This document shows, piece by piece, positions 14,683-29,259 of a stretch of 29,259 bases of DNA. The notes beneath the pieces are model-generated. The model was given only the letters and a program-made list of their open reading frames with translations, was not told where the DNA came from and ran no database searches. This DNA is from a virus: IMG/VR virus record IMGVR_UViG_3300043411_000159, positions 1 through 29,259 of that record, one strand, 5' to 3'. A program made the position numbers and the translations under genes. Position 1 is the stretch's first letter, and the number at the start of each line of letters is the position of its first letter.

Positions 14683-15535
14683 GCCACCAATCGTGACGAG
14701 GACGAGTAACGCCCTTTTTGTTATTACGATGAGCAACAGCACTAGTAGCTGCGAGTCCTGCAGAAGCTGCTCCTAGTGCAATACCTGCCTTTGGCTTAGT
14801 GAATGGCTTCAGTGCTTTTTGGCCCTTGATGGCAGCCTTAGCGCCAAACTTTCCCCTACGCTCTTGCTTAAGACCCTTAGCTTCGTTCTTAATGCCACGA
14901 AGCATACGATCTGCATTTGACTTACCAGCTATATCGTTAGGGCTTTTGACATTTTGTGAACTGGCAAAAGACTCGTTATACATGGTTCTTCCGGCTTCTT
15001 TAAGCCGCTTGCCCTGGTTTCTTTTGACATTCTGATTACGGGCGACCATTCGTAATTTATCTACACCTGCTTGCGAACCTAATGTTCCTACTGCAGCTAC
15101 TCCTGCTGCTGCCGACCCCGCTGCAGCAATCTTTGGGTAAGCCTGTGAGCGCTTTTGCCGATTCTGCTCTAGGTTCTTAGCTGCGCTCTTAGAGACAGCC
15201 TGCAATTGTCGCTTAACGCGGTAGATATCTTTCCTCTTACCGTCGCGACGCTTAAGTTCAGCCTGAGTAACTAGAGAGTTATTAACACCAGCGGATGCAC
15301 CGGCAACACCAGCAGTGGTAACTGAAGCACCAGATGCTCTGTTAATTACCTTTTCTGCCTTAGCGGCATTAGCAACAGCAGGTACGAATTTCTTAGCAGC
15401 CATTCCGCTGCCCTTGATACCAATACCTGCTGCTGTAGTGCCAGCTGCGATAAGACCAAGATCTGCGCCAAGACGCTTGCGGCGCTTAACGCGAGCTTCA
15501 AATTCAACGTCATTAGCTCTATCTAGTTTGGTCAT
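14675..15535 (-). CDS. Very basic Gly/Ala-rich protein, possible capsid-internal protein
   Basis: The 286-residue protein starts at ATG 15535, three bases after the stop of a 25-residue gene. It has a strong excess of Lys and Arg and several Gly/Ala segments resembling glycine-zipper membrane helices. These are near residues 25 to 44 (DLGLIAAGTTAAGIGIKGSG), 70 to 86, 134 to 157 (PKIAAAGSAAAGVAAVGTLG) and 248 to 268. It lacks the full AFG..ISK tag. It may bind packaged DNA or insert into membrane during DNA entry; neither role can be shown from the sequence alone. Confidence 0.6.
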   Translation of the reverse strand: MTKLDRANDVEFEARVKRRKRLGADLGLIAAGTTAAGIGIKGSGMAAKKFVPAVANAAKAEKVINRASGASVTTAGVAGASAGVNNSLVTQAELKRRDGKRKDIYRVKRQLQAVSKSAAKNLEQNRQKRSQAYPKIAAAGSAAAGVAAVGTLGSQAGVDKLRMVARNQNVKRNQGKRLKEAGRTMYNESFASSQNVKSPNDIAGKSNADRMLRGIKNEAKGLKQERRGKFGAKAAIKGQKALKPFTKPKAGIALGAASAGLAATSAVAHRNNKKGVTRPRHDWWQG

Positions 15536-15537
15536 AT

Positions 15538-15615
15538 CTACTCTCTATAGTCGCAGCGGGAACAAATGCCACCTGACATTTTCGCCCCACATTCATCGCA
15601 GTGCTTTGTGATCAT
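15538..15615 (-). CDS. 25-residue zinc-ribbon micro-protein
   Basis: The tiny gene reads MITKHCDECGAKMSGGIC and ends SRCDYRE. The four Cys form CxxC...CxxC with eleven residues between the pairs, a complete zinc-ribbon knuckle. It begins eight bases after one stop and ends two bases before the next ATG, filling exactly the gap between two basic proteins. Its own ribosome site is weak (GAGTAATTAG). The final GAGAG serves the next gene. It is below usual gene-finder limits but well supported by the Cys pattern and packing. The role is unknown. Confidence 0.6.
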   Translation of the reverse strand: MITKHCDECGAKMSGGICSRCDYRE

Positions 15616-15623
15616 TTTACTAA

Positions 15624-16772
15624 TTACTCAAACTTATGCGTAAGGTATCCGACACCAATTGCCTTTTTGCCGGTCTTCTTATCTGTAACTACAATGTCTT
15701 TATTTTTAATCTCACGATTTGCTGATCGCTTTGCTCCGCGAGCAGTCAGGCCATACGAAGCGCCGAGGGAAGTTGCTCCGACAGCTAACGCAGCCTTAGG
15801 GCTTTTACGCATCAGAGCTAGCTGTCCTCCAGTCCCCGCAGCACTTACTGCCACTGCGGGAACCTGATCTTTCAAGCGACCCTTAACGCGCTTTCCATAA
15901 GTTCCTCTGCGAACTTGAACGTTATTTTTACCAGCAGAAGCCAGTTTCGCTTTTTTATAACCCTCTTGCGTAGGAATATCAGCCTTTGAGATACCTTCGT
16001 GCGTAACGCCAAATGCGCTCACGAAGCCACCAGCGAAAGATTTTGACACCTTAATCTTGCCGTTATCTTTCTTGTAGTAGCCCTTACGATGCGCGATTTC
16101 TGTACCAATAGCACCGCCAACACCACCAGCAGTAGCACCAACTAGTTCATGTCCTACAGCCTTAAGCTTCTTGCCTTTTTTACCTGCAACGGCACCATGA
16201 ATTCCAGGGGCAAACGTTCCGGTAGCTAGCCTGCTGACGGACGCAGTAGGAGTAACTGTCCTTTTGATATTTTCTTTATCTTTATTACTCAAGAATCCCT
16301 TGGAAATACCAAATTCGTTTACATACACCTTAGACACCTTAAGGGCGCGCTGCTTACGCATCTGTGCGATCTTCTTCTCTGCGTGCTTTTCCTTACCAAG
16401 ACCAACACCGAACTTGGCTGCTCCACCAGCAGCAAGAGCAGCACCGCCAACAGTGGCTCCAGCAGCAATAGCGCTCTTTGGAGACAATTTGATAGACCTA
16501 CCAACAGTTCGCGCTGCATTCTGGAGATGCAGAGACTTAGGCGCATTTGGGCTAAACACCTGAGAAGTTTTGTAGCTGTTCTTTCCTCTGTCTGCGAACG
16601 CTTTAGCTGCGCTAACTCCACCAGCACCAGCACCCGCTCCAGCTACAGCAGCGCCAATGCCTACTGCCTGAGCGCCCTGGCGCTTACCCCTGCGGGCGTT
16701 ACGCGAGTCAATCTTTCGCTGCTCGATATTCTTCCAGTCGGCTTTAGAAATACCGAACGCATTCACAGGCAC
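15624..16772 (-). CDS. Large basic Gly/Ala-rich protein with three AFG-ISK motifs
   Basis: The 382-residue protein starts with GTG, five bases after GGAG. It begins MPVNAFGISKADW, has NEFGISKGF at about residues 152 to 160, and SAFGVTHEGISKAD at 253 to 264, so the tag occurs three times, roughly 100 to 150 residues apart. Each tag comes before a Lys-rich stretch and a Gly/Ala-rich segment, such as AVGIGAAVAGAGAGAGG at 36 to 52, AAGATVGGAALAAGGAA at 103 to 119 and VGATAGGVGGAIG at 211 to 223. The layout looks like a fusion or duplication of three tagged units. If the tag is a processing site, the protein would yield three basic glycine-rich pieces. Function is not known. Confidence 0.7.
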   Translation of the reverse strand: MPVNAFGISKADWKNIEQRKIDSRNARRGKRQGAQAVGIGAAVAGAGAGAGGVSAAKAFADRGKNSYKTSQVFSPNAPKSLHLQNAARTVGRSIKLSPKSAIAAGATVGGAALAAGGAAKFGVGLGKEKHAEKKIAQMRKQRALKVSKVYVNEFGISKGFLSNKDKENIKRTVTPTASVSRLATGTFAPGIHGAVAGKKGKKLKAVGHELVGATAGGVGGAIGTEIAHRKGYYKKDNGKIKVSKSFAGGFVSAFGVTHEGISKADIPTQEGYKKAKLASAGKNNVQVRRGTYGKRVKGRLKDQVPAVAVSAAGTGGQLALMRKSPKAALAVGATSLGASYGLTARGAKRSANREIKNKDIVVTDKKTGKKAIGVGYLTHKFE

Positions 16773-19129: not shown

Positions 19130-21238
19130 CTATACTTCTGGCGGATCAGTAGGCTGCGCGTAGACAACAGTTACCCATCTATCGTCAGACCAAGGGTTAC
19201 TGAAGAACAGTTCTGGAAACTCTTTGGCCACGTCAGGATCGTAGATAGCGTGCGCTGAGCTTCCTTCCCATCTAATTTTCGAATTAGACAGGTCGTCATA
19301 GATATTACGGAAATCCTTAACTGACAATCTAAACGTCAATTTGCGTTCGTCGGTATGCGTCAGATTATCGTTGTAGAATTCGCCTTCTTGACCAGATGGC
19401 TCTGCCATACGAATCTTATAAGTACCGGCAACGTTGTCGGAACCATTGCTATTAATGTTATCTAGCTCAGTATTAACTGAGTAGAAATCAGAGAAGCCGA
19501 CGACAGCAGGAGTGAAGTTATAGGTATTGTCAGTAGCGCCTAATGTGCTTCCTTCTTCTTCATCGTAATCTTCATTAGCCACTACATCTCGCTCGTAAGC
19601 CTTCTGCTCTTCGTTAAGCCAGTCGTTAGCCTGAGCAAGTGAATCCTTGATGGCAAGATGTAGCGACTCAGGCATATCTATCTCAGCTAGATTATCACCA
19701 GTCAGTTCAACCGGATCGCTTTCGATGTAAGCATTGCTAATGACTGGAATACTGCCCATTTCCAAGTCAGTAGAGTCAATATTAGCAATTTGCTCACCGG
19801 ATTCCCGGTTCCACGGGTTAACGATCTTGTTTTCTCTACCTTGGAATCTACTCTTGAACCCAAAATAGGGCACGAACGCAACTTTGCCATCCTGCTTAAT
19901 GTATGGTGGCTCTTCGGGATCTGGCGGATTAGGAGGATCGAACTCCCTGCGTTCATGCTTTCCGTTGACATAAATCCAAGTGACAACCTTACGCCGTCTT
20001 ACAGGAGGCTTTTTCTCTTGCTCAGTAAACGCGCTAAACGCATTCTTGCTTTCTGTAGCTTCAGAGAAAGCACTCTTCTTAGGAACCCCAAACGCACTCT
20101 TTCGCTCTCCAGAGAATGCACTCTGTTTGATTCCAAATGCATTGACCTTCTTTTCTGGCTCGCTAAACAGAGATTTCTTAGGTACTTCATCTAGCGACAC
20201 GTCAATCCAGTCAGAAAGCTTTGAGTAATCTGCAGCCTGCTCTTGCGTAGAAGCTTGTGGCTTAGGCTTCGACCTGAACTGACCCCTGTTACCCGGCTGC
20301 CCACGTAGGAACTTCTTCTCGTCCCAGTCTTTACGGAGACTCTCGCGGTCATCTGGAAGAATAATGCGGATATCACAGCGGCAATTGACGTGTACGCCTG
20401 GAGTCCAGAACTGCCCTGCAGTGGTTCCGAACTTCTCGTTGATAGGAACGGTCTTCTTATCCATAGGAGCACAGATAGGACATACTCGCTCATCTTCTGC
20501 GGTAATCCACATCTTCATGGCATCCTTTGGGAGAATGCCCATTTCTTGCTGATACAGCCAAACAACGTTCTTACCCATAGTCATAGAGGCCCAAGCCTCA
20601 TGGCGAGCAATACGATCTGCTCGCCCATGAAGCATGTTGGACACAACCTTCTTAAGACCAGAAGGAACTGCCTCTACTTGGTACTCAGCCTGATTAGCGC
20701 CAGTCTTGGTGATATACGAGCGCATCTGCTGTCTATCTAGCCCATAGCCCTCTACAGCACGTTCCCATGCGATAGAAGGATTAACATTCTTGTTTAGCTG
20801 AGCAGCAAATCCCTCAACGATTGCATTGTCAGAAGTGGCATTGATGTAATTACCTAGTGTCTGCGAGTACTCACTAGCAATGTCCGCCAATTGCCTGTCT
20901 GACATTTGCACTTGCTTACTAGCAACCTGATAAGCAGAAGCAACCGCTGGTGTAGCAATCTGTAGCCATACCGGAGCAGTCTTACCCCACACCATCTTGA
21001 GAGCGGCATATGCCTCATCGGTACTCTGCGGCTTCTGTTCACGTAGTTTCCGCCGTGAGATTGCCAGCCACACAAGAACAGAAACGCCAATACCAACGGC
21101 AATAGCGATTTCTGTCTTCAGATGTGAGTTCTCTTTAGTGGTCTCTTCAATGACCTGATTCTCTCCATCTAGGAAGTCCTCTGGGTTGTACTGAAGAAAG
21201 TCCTCTGGAGATTGGTTAAGGAAGTCGTTCTCTGGCAT
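19130..21238 (-). CDS. Minor head protein, Mu gpF / SPP1 gp7 family, with membrane segment and AFG repeats
   Basis: The 702-residue protein belongs to the head morphogenesis family (PF04233-like). The core at about 170 to 300 has MKMWITAEDERVCPICAPMD, then PGVHVNCRCDIRI, with Cys253, Cys256, His283, Cys286 and Cys288 as the usual zinc site. At the N-terminus are three DFL repeats (NDFLNQS, PEDFLQYN, PEDFLDGE), then a membrane-like segment at 43 to 61. After the core come RGQPGNRGQFRSK (312 to 324) and a cluster of five (N/S)AF(G/S) repeats at about 366 to 402. The C-terminal 300 residues are not recognised. Family role: internal head protein linked to portal and DNA; membrane segment and repeats are unusual additions. 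Confidence 0.85.
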   Translation of the reverse strand: MPENDFLNQSPEDFLQYNPEDFLDGENQVIEETTKENSHLKTEIAIAVGIGVSVLVWLAISRRKLREQKPQSTDEAYAALKMVWGKTAPVWLQIATPAVASAYQVASKQVQMSDRQLADIASEYSQTLGNYINATSDNAIVEGFAAQLNKNVNPSIAWERAVEGYGLDRQQMRSYITKTGANQAEYQVEAVPSGLKKVVSNMLHGRADRIARHEAWASMTMGKNVVWLYQQEMGILPKDAMKMWITAEDERVCPICAPMDKKTVPINEKFGTTAGQFWTPGVHVNCRCDIRIILPDDRESLRKDWDEKKFLRGQPGNRGQFRSKPKPQASTQEQAADYSKLSDWIDVSLDEVPKKSLFSEPEKKVNAFGIKQSAFSGERKSAFGVPKKSAFSEATESKNAFSAFTEQEKKPPVRRRKVVTWIYVNGKHERREFDPPNPPDPEEPPYIKQDGKVAFVPYFGFKSRFQGRENKIVNPWNRESGEQIANIDSTDLEMGSIPVISNAYIESDPVELTGDNLAEIDMPESLHLAIKDSLAQANDWLNEEQKAYERDVVANEDYDEEEGSTLGATDNTYNFTPAVVGFSDFYSVNTELDNINSNGSDNVAGTYKIRMAEPSGQEGEFYNDNLTHTDERKLTFRLSVKDFRNIYDDLSNSKIRWEGSSAHAIYDPDVAKEFPELFFSNPWSDDRWVTVVYAQPTDPPEV

Positions 21239-21250
21239 ACGACTACCTTA

Positions 21251-24200
21251 CTACTCGTTGTTTTTAAAGGCGTCTGGATACGCTTCTCGGATAATCGAAT
21301 TAACTTCACTTGCAGGAAGCTTACTGTGTAGGTTATCTGCCACTAGCGGATAATTATCCTTTAAGTGGCGCATAATTTGCTTGTCGTAGTACTCCTGTGT
21401 TGATTCAATCTCAGCAGACTGTGGAGCCATATTCTGAGCAGCATTGCGAGCAATTAGACCAACTACATCATCTTTTTGGTCTTCACTAGCGTTAATGAAA
21501 GCAAGGTTTGTCTGATACTCATTAACTACGCCTGGGCCTTCCTCTTTTGCGCCTGAAGCTTCGTTCTGTAGTTCTTGTTCCTTTCGGAACGTAACAAGTG
21601 CCTGCTTAGCCTTAAACAGATCCTCTACATTTCGATAGAAGTCTGGTGTTGGCTTCCCATCACGGCCAAGCACGTCAACATCTACGCCAGTCAAATTCGA
21701 CTTAATGTTGGTGTTGGGATCAAAGTTACGGTTCATAGAAGCTTGCGACTTAGCCGCCTTGTAATCCTTTGCAGCAGCATTTAGCGCTTCAGATACCGAA
21801 TCCTCTGGTGTTCCTGGGAACCTATCTCCAACTGCAGAGATTACAGGGGTAGAATCACTGATGTTCTTGTCTGCTGGCTGCCTGTCATAACCGCCACCAA
21901 ACTCCCAAGTAGCACCTGAGTTATGCGGATCGAAGAAATCATCCAATTGCTTGCGACGGTCCTTACGATCAACAATCTTAGGAGCGCCTAACTTGCCTAG
22001 CTTCGCAGCAGACAAGTCATCCCGAGCTTCCTGCTTAACGCTAAAGACATTAAGAGCCAGCGCTGCATCAATTGCCTTGATTACATCGTCTTTTCTATTC
22101 GGATCAGACAGCGCACTTTCTAGGTCATTAAGGTCACTAACTCCACTAAACAAAGGAAGAGTCGCCTTGAAATTAGTCTTTTCCAGATTCGGGTCGTTGA
22201 AGATTTCTTTAACTGATTGTCCATCTAGACTAATCTTCATTCCAGCGCCAGCATTAAATTCACCCTCAACTTCCGGGCGGATTACTGGTCCACCAAGCTC
22301 ATCTGTAGCGCTAAACTTGCCGTTCGCATACTGGTCGAGAAGCTGCTTGCCAATCTCGTAATACGCCTTTTGTTTCTGTTCATCCACAAACAGACCTGAA
22401 TTAGCCGAACGACGAGCGACAGAGGTTCCGCTTTCCTTGCCCTCATCTGTCTTCGCCTTCTCACTAGCACGCGCTGCCGTTACTTGATTACGTACCTTGA
22501 AGTTTTGGAATCCAGTTTGATCGGCACTCTTCTTACCTTGCCCATTGATACTGTCGTCCCAGTATCCAGCTTGAGCAGCAGCAGGACGGTTATAGCTAGG
22601 CTTAACGTAGCCAGAATCATCATTCCACGCACTACCGTCGTTCCACGGACGGAATGAAACCCTACTGAAGTAGTACGGGAACTGATTCTCTAGCGCCTCT
22701 TGTGCCTTCTTGTAGCCCTGTGCATTGAGGCGTAGTGGCTTATGAGACATTTTGTATTCTTCTTCAGCACGCTCAACTGCAATATCAGCCTGAGCCTGAG
22801 CACCCAAAGCGCGAATCACGCCGTTAGTGGTGGAAAGCTCAGAGATCTGACGCTCTGCTCCAGCCTTAATTGCACCAGCGTTGGCAGGGTCACGACGCAT
22901 CGCAGCAAGAGAATTCTGGTGGATTTCACTCATCTTTGTCTCTGCGAAATCTGAAGCGTTGTCATATCCAGCTTTAGACGCTGCGTTATCAGCCGTTTCG
23001 CGGCGAATCTTGTCCTTGTCGGCCTCTGCCAATTTAGGATCTAGCTCGTCACGTTCGCGAGCGCCCTTAAGAGCACTTTTGTAACCTGCTGGATCGTCTA
23101 CTTGATCTGCTTCGCGCGCTGCTTCTTGCTTCAGTTCTTCCTCACGCGCCTGTGAGCGCTGTGCGGTGTGAACCTTGTTAGACGCAAGCGAATCCAAAAG
23201 ATGCTCATAACGACCGACCATACGGGCAGCCTTGTCGTTGTAGCGCTTAGATCCACGGAAGTCGTCATCGAATTCAACTGTATACACACCAGAATGCGAG
23301 ACAACAGTAACTGCACGAGCGCCAGAAACTAGACCAGTGTAGATATCTTCTGCGGTCAATCCACCGTATGCGCGTGTGCGAACGTACTCTCCACCTTGAA
23401 GTTTAGAGAGATTCTTAAGGTTGAATGGAAGATACCAGTCGTCTCCGTACCCCATAGCCTCAGTAACTACCTGACCCTTACGGTCGATAATTACACCTTG
23501 TGATGGAGGGATGTTCCCGCTCTCCCGGTTAAGGACATAAAGTTCTTCATTAGGAAGCTTCTTACGGAAGTAATCAATGACCGCAGATTCCTTAGCTGGA
23601 GATTTCTTCATCCCCATTTGTGGATTCTTTGGATCAATTGGCTCAGTAGCGCCAGAAGTTCCATAAATTACCTTGTTACGAGCGATAGTGTCAGCCTTCT
23701 GCTGACTATCACCAGTGTATTGAGCCTTCTTGCGTTCCTGATTACGAGTTTCGTTAATCGTGTTCTGAAGTACCGCATTTGGAGTCTTTTCGACACCACG
23801 GTAACGGTAAGCAGACTTACGGGCCTTTGGCCCAATTACCTTCTCCGCTTCAGCAGCATGAGTAGATGCAAAGTTAGCAGCAAATAGCGCGGTATTGGCT
23901 TTAGGGCCAAGAGCCGGTCCAAGAACATCCTGAGCGAGCTTAGAACCTGCGTTTACTTGGTTGTAGAAGCGCTCTCCAGTACCCAATTCAGGAACTGGCT
24001 GCCCTGCTTCGTCTGTGTATGTCCCTAAAGCACCGCCGTTGATAGACGACAAGGCAGCTGCTCCAGCTGGACCAAATAGGTCGTAGCCGAGATCAGTTGG
24101 GTTATCTGCAGCACCAGTAGGAGACTCGATAACCTGAACGCTGTGCAGCTTCTTTCCGTCCTGGTACATAATCGAATTGACTAGACCATTAGCGGAGTTA

Positions 24201-24871
24201 ATGGAGTCAGCTTGGGCAGTACGAGCTTCACCCACAGTCATCAACGGAGTGCGTTCTTCTCCCTCGCCATCTCCCTTTTTACCGCTTTTTGCGCTATAAA
24301 CACCGTAAATGAGAGCGTCATTAGGCGTATTAGAGCGAAGAATCTCACTGACCTGAAGATAAGCCTGCTGGAACTCAGACTTCTTATTATTGCTCAGACC
24401 AGAATTAGGGATACCACGCTTGCCAGCGTCCTTATCTTTCAGATTCGGTACTTTTTCGTCAGTCTTAACTTTATGCGACGTAGTACGGAAGCGTCCTCCC
24501 TCACCGCGAGGGTGTAGGTCTTCTTTCCAGCGATAGCTATTATTCTCAGCCTTAGAAATAAGCTGAATAGCCTCATCAAGAACAACCAAATCATGAATAT
24601 CTCCACCATTAGCAGCCTTGGAGATAGCAGCCTTCTTGATTACTTCCCGTACTTGCTGTGTACGGTCTTGGACGTAGGACTGAAATGCCTTACTGACGAG
24701 TTCCCGATTTTGTTGTACGGATGCAGTGTGAAGGTCAAAAAGAGCTGCTCTGAGAACAAATGGAGCCTCTTCAGGATGTGATTCAACCCATTCATATGCA
24801 TCAACCGCCGCAACTAGACTGTCGTTCTTGGAAATGCCCAGGTATTCCCTCGTAGCTTGCTCACGCTTCAC
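21251..24871 (-). CDS. 1206-residue head-region protein of unknown function
   Basis: The protein starts with GTG in a GTGA overlap with portal, eight bases after GAAGGAG. Residues 1 to 110 are helical, with EYLGISKND at 10 to 17 and two more ISK triplets. The conserved WKEDLHPRGEGGRF lies at 115 to 128. A globular part follows, with SAVIDYFRKKLPNEELYVLN and SQGVIIDRKGQVVTEAMGYG. Long charged helices fill the middle (EEELKQEAAREADQVDD). The end has further helical repeats. I find no catalytic motif I would trust. Large size, position between portal and minor head protein, and the shared HPRG motif suggest a virion component, possibly injected with the DNA. Confidence 0.7.
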   Translation of the reverse strand: MKREQATREYLGISKNDSLVAAVDAYEWVESHPEEAPFVLRAALFDLHTASVQQNRELVSKAFQSYVQDRTQQVREVIKKAAISKAANGGDIHDLVVLDEAIQLISKAENNSYRWKEDLHPRGEGGRFRTTSHKVKTDEKVPNLKDKDAGKRGIPNSGLSNNKKSEFQQAYLQVSEILRSNTPNDALIYGVYSAKSGKKGDGEGEERTPLMTVGEARTAQADSINSANGLVNSIMYQDGKKLHSVQVIESPTGAADNPTDLGYDLFGPAGAAALSSINGGALGTYTDEAGQPVPELGTGERFYNQVNAGSKLAQDVLGPALGPKANTALFAANFASTHAAEAEKVIGPKARKSAYRYRGVEKTPNAVLQNTINETRNQERKKAQYTGDSQQKADTIARNKVIYGTSGATEPIDPKNPQMGMKKSPAKESAVIDYFRKKLPNEELYVLNRESGNIPPSQGVIIDRKGQVVTEAMGYGDDWYLPFNLKNLSKLQGGEYVRTRAYGGLTAEDIYTGLVSGARAVTVVSHSGVYTVEFDDDFRGSKRYNDKAARMVGRYEHLLDSLASNKVHTAQRSQAREEELKQEAAREADQVDDPAGYKSALKGARERDELDPKLAEADKDKIRRETADNAASKAGYDNASDFAETKMSEIHQNSLAAMRRDPANAGAIKAGAERQISELSTTNGVIRALGAQAQADIAVERAEEEYKMSHKPLRLNAQGYKKAQEALENQFPYYFSRVSFRPWNDGSAWNDDSGYVKPSYNRPAAAQAGYWDDSINGQGKKSADQTGFQNFKVRNQVTAARASEKAKTDEGKESGTSVARRSANSGLFVDEQKQKAYYEIGKQLLDQYANGKFSATDELGGPVIRPEVEGEFNAGAGMKISLDGQSVKEIFNDPNLEKTNFKATLPLFSGVSDLNDLESALSDPNRKDDVIKAIDAALALNVFSVKQEARDDLSAAKLGKLGAPKIVDRKDRRKQLDDFFDPHNSGATWEFGGGYDRQPADKNISDSTPVISAVGDRFPGTPEDSVSEALNAAAKDYKAAKSQASMNRNFDPNTNIKSNLTGVDVDVLGRDGKPTPDFYRNVEDLFKAKQALVTFRKEQELQNEASGAKEEGPGVVNEYQTNLAFINASEDQKDDVVGLIARNAAQNMAPQSAEIESTQEYYDKQIMRHLKDNYPLVADNLHSKLPASEVNSIIREAYPDAFKNNE

Positions 24872-27361: not shown

Positions 27362-27500
27362 CCACAGAGAACTTACGCCCAAGAATAGGCACTGGGATAG
27401 GAAATACGTGCCCTTTATGCACGCGCAAGATACCGAATCCCTGTTGCCAGTTAGCTCCACCAGTCTTTAGGTATTGCTCTGACGCGGCCTTAAGGTCCAT
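27336..27500 (-). CDS. 54-residue protein after the terminase
   Basis: The start chosen is ATG 27500, with GAGGTG nine bases upstream, giving MDLKAASEQYLKTGGANW. A TTG start at 27542 overlapping the terminase stop is possible but weaker. The rest is a small beta domain (QGFGILRVHKGHVFPIPVPIL, KFSVDGQIYTW) with hydrophobic strands. The next gene overlaps it by 26 bases. No family recognised; the strong ribosome site is the main support. Confidence 0.6.
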   Translation of the reverse strand: MDLKAASEQYLKTGGANWQQGFGILRVHKGHVFPIPVPILGRKFSVDGQIYTWN

Positions 27501-27534
27501 CAAATGACCCACCTCAAAGCCAAATAGCGTCTGT

Positions 27535-29259
27535 TTAGACAAGAAAACTCAGGTCTTCCTGCGGGTTCTTAACGTAGACAGATATCGAAGGATCACCCGT
27601 CTTTGTACCTTGTCTCTGGTCTTCTGGAAGGAAGTGTGCCTCAGTCCTCGTAGGAGCCAAATCTCTAGCGATAGTAATAGCTTCCCCACCAGCGAATCCA
27701 TGTTTCTTAATCAACCTCCATGCAAGTGCTAGGGAGCATACTTCATCGGGGAGGTGGAAGTCTTTTCCGCGCCCGTAAAGGTCGCCCACACGAGCGTATT
27801 TATGGGCAATGTAATTGGACTTGAATTGAGGGTAAGCAACTCTACCGTTCTCGACGGCTGAGACGTACTCGCTGAGCATGTTGTCACGGGATTGTCCTGA
27901 CATAATGAAGCTGTTAGCGCGGAGATCGACGTAATCGTTAACCACATTCCCAAGACCAGTACCGTCGTGAATAGCAGTGGCGTTATATGTGTTGATAGCT
28001 TCATTAAACCAACCAATCATCTGTGGGTATGGACGACGATTGACCCGCATCCAATACACCATGCGGGCAGGTTGAACGTCTGCTCGCATTACTGAAATTA
28101 CTGTGTAGTCCTGCTCTTTGCCCCAGTCAGCTGCTGCAACGTACACACCATGTCTTTCTGGTTCTTCGAACGTGTATTCTTCGAAGTCTTTTTGAATCTT
28201 CTCCCTGATTGGGGAGTGTGGGTATCCGAACACCTGTTCGATAGCGTCTGGATCGAACGCGCGGTTACCAATAGCAGGCTCACCAAGCTCATACTCAGTT
28301 CGCCACATCTCTGTGGGGATCTCTAGTTTCTTAGCGTCAATAGTCTCTTGACTTAGCCATCCATCAATAGGGTTCGCTGAACACTGATAGCACCACGTAA
28401 CGACAGGGAGATTACGTTCCTCAAACCTACGTCTAATAGCAGTGAATGTGTTATGTACAAGAATTCCATTAGCTACATATTCGTGCGTGTCTTCTACTGT
28501 TAAGTCCCACGTTGGCAGTATTATGCCACTATGAATAACATTAACAACTTCGTCTTGGGTAAAGACCATACCGTCAATCTCGATACCGACGAGTGCATCA
28601 TCTGGCCCTTCCGTATCGCTTCCAATGGATACGGGTACAAAACTGACAGGAATCTCATCGCCGGTAAGAGGGTTTTCCTGGCTCACAGGTGGGTCTACAT
28701 GAAGGTCATTGGTCCTATCCCCAACGATTTGCCCCTGGACCATACTTGTTGCAACAGATCCTGCATTAACCCCAGACACCTTGAACTCGTCACTACTTCT
28801 GAGAACAACATCAGAGCGCTCGCTGTTAAAACTCCTAAGACCGTCTGCAACAACGGTCATGACTTGACCATCGACGGCGCTGTTGTCTATATCAAGAGCG
28901 GAGTTGGAGACTCCAGAAAGCGCTCTTGCAGAGTCTGCAGAGACGACAGAAACGCTGCTTTTAAAGCCGCTAACCCCACCTATCACAGAGATTACATGCG
29001 TGCCTACCGTGAGTCTGGAAGCTTTGACCCAGCCAGCACTAGTCCAAACGGGGTGCCAGGGAGTGCAAGTGATAACTCGTCCTGACGCGAAACGTACAGT
29101 TACGCATTCCTGATTGCCAGTGTTAATCGAATTAGTAACGTCACGCCATCCATCTCGCGTCATTACTTGATCTCCAATCACTACTTTCTGGATAGGGATC
29201 TCTCCCCGCTTAGTAGTGATTGGAGTATTAAGTACCATACAGCCTTCTGGGTTCTGCCA
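27535..29259 (-). CDS. terL: Terminase large subunit, interrupted by an intein (5' end outside window)
   Basis: This is the packaging motor's ATPase and nuclease. Only WQNPEG of the N-terminal extein lies in the window; the frame then enters the intein at Cys and resumes after Asn at TFTAIRRRFEERNLPVV. Joined, the sequence reads WQNPEG-TF, a conserved part of the ATPase domain just after the coupling motif. The C-terminal extein (304 residues) has MWRTEYELGEP and the three acidic blocks of the RNase H-like nuclease: AADWGKEQDYTV, AIHDGTGLGN and LPDEVCSLALAW. Splicing must happen to make a working enzyme. The upstream ATPase half is beyond the window edge, so Walker A and B cannot be checked. 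Confidence 0.9.
   Translation of the reverse strand, partial: WQNPEGCMVLNTPITTKRGEIPIQKVVIGDQVMTRDGWRDVTNSINTGNQECVTVRFASGRVITCTPWHPVWTSAGWVKASRLTVGTHVISVIGGVSGFKSSVSVVSADSARALSGVSNSALDIDNSAVDGQVMTVVADGLRSFNSERSDVVLRSSDEFKVSGVNAGSVATSMVQGQIVGDRTNDLHVDPPVSQENPLTGDEIPVSFVPVSIGSDTEGPDDALVGIEIDGMVFTQDEVVNVIHSGIILPTWDLTVEDTHEYVANGILVHNTFTAIRRRFEERNLPVVTWCYQCSANPIDGWLSQETIDAKKLEIPTEMWRTEYELGEPAIGNRAFDPDAIEQVFGYPHSPIREKIQKDFEEYTFEEPERHGVYVAAADWGKEQDYTVISVMRADVQPARMVYWMRVNRRPYPQMIGWFNEAINTYNATAIHDGTGLGNVVNDYVDLRANSFIMSGQSRDNMLSEYVSAVENGRVAYPQFKSNYIAHKYARVGDLYGRGKDFHLPDEVCSLALAWRLIKKHGFAGGEAITIARDLAPTRTEAHFLPEDQRQGTKTGDPSISVYVKNPQEDLSFLV
28519..28524 (+). promoter_or_regulatory. Possible -10 box for a leaderless HNH transcript
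   Basis: TATTAT (5 of 6 matches to TATAAT, and a TANNNT fit) ends six bases before the HNH start ATG. Transcription would then begin at or next to the A of the ATG, giving a leaderless mRNA, a form common in Actinobacteria. There is no good -35 and no Shine-Dalgarno before this start. It is a motif match only. Confidence 0.4.
28531..29085 (+). CDS. HNH homing endonuclease encoded antisense inside the intein
   Basis: This 184-residue enzyme is the only plus-strand gene in the window. It has the HNH_3-type core: AHRWVYMKVIGPIP (His52), LDHTCCNRSCINPRHLELV (His71, Asn80, His83) and VTTSENNIRAL. A C-terminal knuckle follows with CNNGHDLT and SCRVCRDDR (Cys106, His110, Cys133, Cys136). A low-complexity tail (GSFDPASTSPNGVPGS) lies opposite splicing block B. 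The reading frame pairs codon-on-codon with the intein, and all 14 Ser and 10 Leu codons avoid TCA, TTA and CTA. Third-position C is far more frequent than in the terminase. Family role: cuts intein-free alleles to spread the element. Start ATG lacks a ribosome site; see the -10 box. Confidence 0.9.
   Translation: MNNINNFVLGKDHTVNLDTDECIIWPFRIASNGYGYKTDRNLIAGKRVFLAHRWVYMKVIGPIPNDLPLDHTCCNRSCINPRHLELVTTSENNIRALAVKTPKTVCNNGHDLTIDGAVVYIKSGVGDSRKRSCRVCRDDRNAAFKAANPTYHRDYMRAYRESGSFDPASTSPNGVPGSASDNSS

Follow-up and report, generated by a model that had tools for sequence, protein, structure and literature searches.

The large terminase gene of a phage contains a complete Hint-type intein on the minus strand (28450-29241), and the plus strand of the same DNA carries, at 28531-29085, an intact HNH endonuclease of the I-HmuI/I-PpoI (His-Me finger) type. 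The intein is established as such, its splicing activity being inferred; the endonuclease is established by family, motifs and predicted fold, its expression and cleavage being inferred. The layout is real and recurrent, not a one-off accident, as described below for a second phage terminase. The DNA analysed is the whole of IMG/VR virus record IMGVR_UViG_3300043411_000159 (29,259 bp), which I will refer to as the window. The features considered are:

27535..28449, minus strand: C-extein of the large terminase (TFTAIRRR...); Terminase_6C 0.004, PHROG_2 2e-4, 17 viral homologs
28450..29241, minus strand: intein, 264 aa, Cys1 to Asn264, then Thr +1; translation, PF14890, TIGR01445, TIGR01443, intein-free homologs
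28450..28584, minus strand: C-terminal Hint half, residues 220-264, blocks F and G; AlphaFold2 pLDDT >90, Hint-C profile 3e-14
28585..28974, minus strand: disordered intein linker, residues 90-219; AlphaFold2 pLDDT 40-65, no secondary structure
28975..29241, minus strand: N-terminal Hint half, residues 1-89, blocks A and B; AlphaFold2 pLDDT, Hint-N profile 5e-33
29242..29259, minus strand: end of the N-extein (WQNPEG), cut at the record end; translation, intein-free homologs
28501..28503, plus strand: TAA, in frame and upstream of the HNH ATG; sequence
28531..29085, plus strand: ORF of the HNH (putative homing) endonuclease, 184 aa, ATG to TGA, antisense to and codon-aligned with the intein; HNH_3, PHROG_826, AlphaFold2
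28678..28809, plus strand: HNH_3 motif AHR...DH..CCNRSCINPRHLE.VT..EN, residues 50-93; Pfam alignment
28846..28938, plus strand: second Cys/His (zinc-ribbon-like) motif C106..GH110..C133..C136; conserved columns of the HNH alignment

Two frames on the same base pairs

The terminase gene lies at the end of the minus strand, truncated by the end of the record, and its frame (27535-29259) is one uninterrupted ORF. Seventeen terminase homologs were retrieved, and in 16 of them TF[TS] directly follows WQNPEG or a near variant of it, the intein-free sequence reading STWQNPEG/TFTEVRRRF or a close variant (the slash marks the empty site). The insertion point is exact, since these 16 homologs are uninterrupted there. 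The sole near relative with the same intein site, L004 (terminase 85% identical, same intein end), is truncated inside the intein, its contig beginning 23 residues before the splice point. A DNA-pattern scan of IMG/VR found no other copies of the WQNPEGC site. Elsewhere on the minus strand of the window (21251-24871), between the portal and head-morphogenesis genes, a 1206-aa protein is encoded that has no PHROG match.

The translation of the intein, CMVLNTPITTKRGEIPIQ...TCTPWHPVW...PTWDLTVEDTHEYVANGILVHN followed by TFTAIRRR, presents the residues of splicing: Cys1, TPWH in block B, a penultimate His, a C-terminal Asn and Thr at +1. Within an alignment of 59 sequences, C1, H63 and N264 are invariant and T60 and H263 are at least 90% conserved. 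The frame matches Pfam Intein_splicing (PF14890, 9e-11) and the NCBIfam N- and C-terminal splicing regions (TIGR01445, 8e-7; TIGR01443, 9e-7), and searches of Pfam, NCBIfam and PHROG found no endonuclease or nuclease domain in it. The AlphaFold2 model built on that alignment consists of a confident Hint domain made from residues 1-89 and 220-264, disordered between; ten-residue blocks of the N-terminal half have pLDDT values mostly of 97-98, with 85 in the last. Its best matches in the PDB are the mini-inteins Ssp DnaB and Mtu RecA (TMt 0.7-0.8). The linker between the halves is what results from reading the HNH core antisense, and it shows no conservation in its own frame.

Two other descriptions of this region were considered and rejected. 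A split intein with a free-standing endonuclease is ruled out, as the halves are not separate genes and the minus-strand ORF runs unbroken from 27535 to 29259. A group I intron with an antisense endonuclease gene was also rejected, an Rfam scan of 27400-29259 having returned no intron family up to an E of 1.

The plus-strand ORF matches Pfam HNH_3 (4.3e-13) and, across residues 15-155, PHROG_826 (7.3e-36). The catalytic and zinc residues of its HNH motif are intact, and of the 29 alignment columns with 90% or higher conservation among free-standing relatives it retains 28. A home-built HNH profile scores it at 6e-46, its own sequence having been included in the profile. The AlphaFold2 model (68-sequence alignment) has a mean pLDDT of 83, and its best structural matches in the PDB, which are modest, are I-HmuI (E 0.0075) and I-PpoI (E 0.012); searching the PDB sequences with the HNH profile gave no match.

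The HNH gene is antisense to the intein frame and in register with its codons (positions 28531 and 27538 both equal 1 mod 3), so the intein would be interrupted only by TTA, CTA or TCA in the HNH gene. None of these occurs among the gene's 10 Leu and 14 Ser codons, which fits an intein frame that has to remain open; the probability that the antisense frame would be open along the entire HNH protein is about 0.005 under the phage's codon usage. The two predicted folds complement each other. The folded plus-strand segment coincides almost exactly with the disordered minus-strand segment (28585-28974), with 10-15 codons at each edge folded in both frames; in the HNH ORF, roughly 15 codons at the start and 25 at the end are antisense to folded Hint strands.

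The initial annotation, made without database searches, had claimed a complete splicing-type intein in the terminase at 28450-29241, no endonuclease motif in the intein's own frame, a full HNH endonuclease with its core residues on the plus strand at 28531..29085, and the two functions on the same base pairs of opposite strands. All four claims held, the first through the splice residues, the Pfam and NCBIfam matches and the empty sites, the second through the profile searches, and the third with the refinement that the conserved HNH core is narrower, approximately 28561-28974. In HMM searches both frames match the families it had proposed (Hint/intein and HNH_3).

Recurrence, and selection on each strand

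A survey of viral inteins led to a second record, IMGVR_UViG_3300010362_000102 (L174), whose terminase is homologous to that of the window and holds two inteins, both at sites other than the window's (slashes mark the splice junctions):

2440-3084 of L174: intein 1, FRW/C...N/CYKDTANP
3682-4422 of L174: intein 2, NHLY/C...N/CSVEQIYSRGKEFHL

Antisense to each of them runs an HNH gene belonging to the window's HNH family; it is codon-aligned as in the window and its frame is unbroken (profile E 5.5e-38 and 3.4e-42; HNH_3 8e-13 and 1e-8), with 25 and 27 of the 29 conserved columns retained. The second is preceded by AGGAGG, 15 nt upstream of its GTG start. The initial annotation had held that homologous inteins with a broken plus-strand frame and an intact minus frame would refute it; these two show the opposite.

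A scan of the terminase family for QKTVRGPHPP gave 86 stretches, which with the earlier homologs make 99 loci screened. The N-terminal Hint profile matched only the L174 contig among them (L004 is included in the 99, its contig lacking the N-terminal half of the intein). An antisense HNH is therefore present in all three of the complete inteins identified in the terminase family of the window, at three sites, and no HNH-free intein was found among the screened homologs.

An antisense ORF with spurious similarity might arise by chance, for codon-aligned antisense frames often lack stops, those beneath other genes of the window reaching 197 codons. This explanation is all but excluded: it is refuted by the profile matches (HNH_3 4e-13, PHROG_826 7e-36) and by the independent repeat in the two L174 inteins.

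Comparison of the three copies supports the view that each strand is under selection in its own segment, the HNH core in the HNH frame and the Hint parts in the intein frame. Identities within the core are 45, 40 and 38% in the HNH frame vs. 22, 24 and 26% in the intein frame, and outside the core the order is reversed (18-27% in the HNH frame vs. 34-52% in the intein frame). The alignment behind these figures was made in the HNH frame, a bias removed by BLASTP comparisons in which each frame was aligned separately. By this measure the HNH-frame cores match one another at 2e-28, 2e-18 and 7e-16, while the linker frame gives a single non-significant match (0.17), with identities near the level of shuffled sequences. 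Differences concentrate at the third codon position of the HNH frame within the core and at the third codon position of the intein frame outside it (pooled Fisher p 9e-5, the three pairs not being independent).

The same results bear on the possibility that the HNH gene is a relic, a recent arrival no longer expressed that is open only because the codon-aligned intein frame must be. In its favor, the HNH gene of the window has no Shine-Dalgarno sequence and no promoter above chance, and the minus frame must avoid stops regardless of the plus frame. Against it are the conserved columns kept by all three copies and the similarity between diverged copies, far higher in the HNH frame than in the linker frame. 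I consider this possibility very unlikely.

A probable mobile intein, or possibly a nested parasite

The reading I favor is a mobile intein whose DNA encodes splicing on one strand and homing on the other. From the minus strand would come a terminase precursor. In it the two ends of the intein would form the Hint domain, which would accommodate some 130 disordered residues at the position where an endonuclease is usually inserted and then excise itself. The plus-strand product would be a separate, independently expressed HNH endonuclease that cuts terminase alleles lacking the intein; intein and HNH would be copied in together when the break is repaired from the occupied allele. It is likely that the HNH mobilizes the intein in this way, with transcription and translation of the HNH, cutting of the empty site, homing and splicing of the precursor all inferred. 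The initial annotation's statement that the endonuclease needs its own transcription has the same standing: that the antisense gene is transcribed on its own, that its product cleaves and that it homes all rest on inference. The scarcity of inteins in this terminase family (only the L174 contig among 99 loci, and 16 empty homologs) is the sporadic distribution expected of a homing element.

Some observations count against this reading. The expression signals in the window are weak: no Shine-Dalgarno sequence was found between the TAA at 28501..28503 and the ATG at 28531, and a promoter scan gave nothing above chance, which speaks against an independently expressed HNH. Twelve of the 25 other genes of the window phage likewise have no clear Shine-Dalgarno sequence. 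The modest fold match (E 0.0075), the absence of a sequence match in the PDB and the truncation of L004 inside its intein also count against the reading.

The strongest competing reading is a nested parasite. On this view a mini-intein was invaded, in reverse orientation, by an HNH gene that had been free-standing and that targets the intein, or else something unconnected with the terminase; the HNH would move independently, with the intein a mere safe harbor. In its support, phages often carry free-standing members of this HNH family (matches in 857 phage records), L174 has two extra HNH genes remote from any Hint domain, and the three antisense copies are not united in the HNH tree, which is poorly resolved. 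Against it, the HNH lies at the normal endonuclease position of an intein in three of three cases, the pairing of intein with HNH is seen at three separate sites, and the screened homologs in the terminase family of the window include no HNH-free intein. I regard the nested parasite as unlikely. Trees of the Hint domain and of the HNH protein do not separate one origin from several.

As to the relatives of the HNH, viral scans with the HNH protein or the intein protein alone yielded no close relatives, and none of the nearest 80 HNH relatives lies inside an intein. The two L174 genes outside the inteins (15502-15867 and 20741-21103, of the same family and without a nearby Hint domain) are possible donors. 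Clavibacter phage CN1A has an unannotated HNH gene between CN1A_15 and CN1A_16 (L003 4001-4348).

Nucleases hidden in other inteins

In the textbook large intein, nuclease and splicing domains belong to one polypeptide. The intein of the window shares with the canonical large intein (in-frame LAGLIDADG or HNH) the Hint fold, the splice residues and an endonuclease between blocks B and F, but its endonuclease is a separate gene on the opposite strand and its in-frame linker is disordered. The initial annotation had supposed that the endonuclease is normally a domain of the intein or lies between split halves, and this requires correction, for out-of-frame nucleases on the same strand dominate this group of inteins.

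The census behind that statement comprised 106 viral inteins, redundancy removed, each having its two Hint blocks within a single open frame. It is biased towards inteins like that of the window, the searches having been seeded with the C-terminal blocks of this intein and its relatives, and the same-strand HNH profile was built from part of the census set. Of the 106, 93 have an HNH on the intein's strand but out of its frame, two (both in L174) have an antisense HNH, none has an HNH of this kind in the intein frame, and in 11 no HNH was detected. HNH_3 was matched by 60 of the 64 alternate-frame ORFs tested. The 89 inteins from bacterial and archaeal genomes gave 15 of the same-strand kind and 74 with none detected. 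With viral and cellular inteins taken together, 109 of 110 same-strand HNH matches share one frame offset, +2. Searching with the HNH profile found no antisense HNH in 12 close inteins from phage records, nor in three more. A Klebsiella sequence (OY978778) with an HNH antisense to an annotated terminase was rejected, as it has no intein and its terminase frame is full of stops.

The same-strand HNH inteins, for example that in terL of Tetrasphaera phage TJE1 (HNH_3, 5e-14), resemble the window's in having a related Hint domain and an overlapping endonuclease gene at the same position. They differ in strand, in their nearly constant offset of +2, and in being mostly of the HHxDG..NN subtype, the HNH of the window being of the DHxCxxRxCxNPxHLE type. 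Free-standing phage HNH proteins like I-HmuI have the fold and motifs in common with it but are not embedded in inteins.

Two published systems are comparable. The ShiLan domain (PMC11855218) is an out-of-frame, same-strand HNH in a phage methylase, in which its authors found neither an intein nor an intron splicing domain; it too is an HNH gene concealed within a host ORF that is kept open, but in the window the HNH is on the opposite strand and a clear Hint domain is present. Nuclear group I introns of Porphyra have antisense His-Cys box genes (PMC2585584), those of the haplotypes studied being judged degenerate, which bears out the initial annotation's remark that antisense homing-endonuclease genes are known in group I introns. 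They share an endonuclease ORF opposite the strand of a self-splicing element; however, the element is an RNA intron without protein splicing, on whose strand no protein reading frame has to be kept. The further remark that no antisense case was known for inteins also stands as far as it could be followed: the literature searched contained no report of one, Gorbalenya 1998 and a preprint (10.1101/2025.01.02.630785) not being covered. The latter, cited in the ShiLan paper, concerns actinobacteriophage inteins with non-canonical architecture and may perhaps cover same-strand HNH inteins, even antisense cases. What seems new, on the literature covered, is the antisense HNH in an intein; the same-strand hidden HNH (in a non-intein insert) and antisense genes in group I introns were already published.

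A bolder reading, which I lean towards without much assurance, is that these inteins form a class of mobile intein with homing and splicing on opposite strands and the endonuclease as an independent antisense gene, and that this class is one branch of a wider pattern in which phage inteins usually carry the nuclease as an overlapping gene rather than a fused domain. If nuclease and splicing functions are genetically superimposed and, as is inferred, separately expressed, the timing of homing could be uncoupled from expression of the terminase, and in such an arrangement neither protein constrains the fold of the other. The three inteins also constitute a natural experiment in antisense dual coding, in which the selection test on each strand already shows a signal. 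In practical terms, endonuclease searches limited to the intein frame miss most of the nucleases in this group of phage inteins and mis-call such inteins as nuclease-free.

Other nuclease families appear in alternate frames of the same strand: LAGLIDADG_2 (1e-21) in the helicase intein of Xanthomonas phage FoX3 (L123 1569-2366), Endonuclease_7 (5e-21) in the terminase intein of Gordonia phage Fosterous (L129 1311-1844), and DUF559 (8e-12) in the helicase intein of Vibrio phage 1.194.O (L130 1754-2542). The overlap of nuclease and intein is therefore not confined to HNH.
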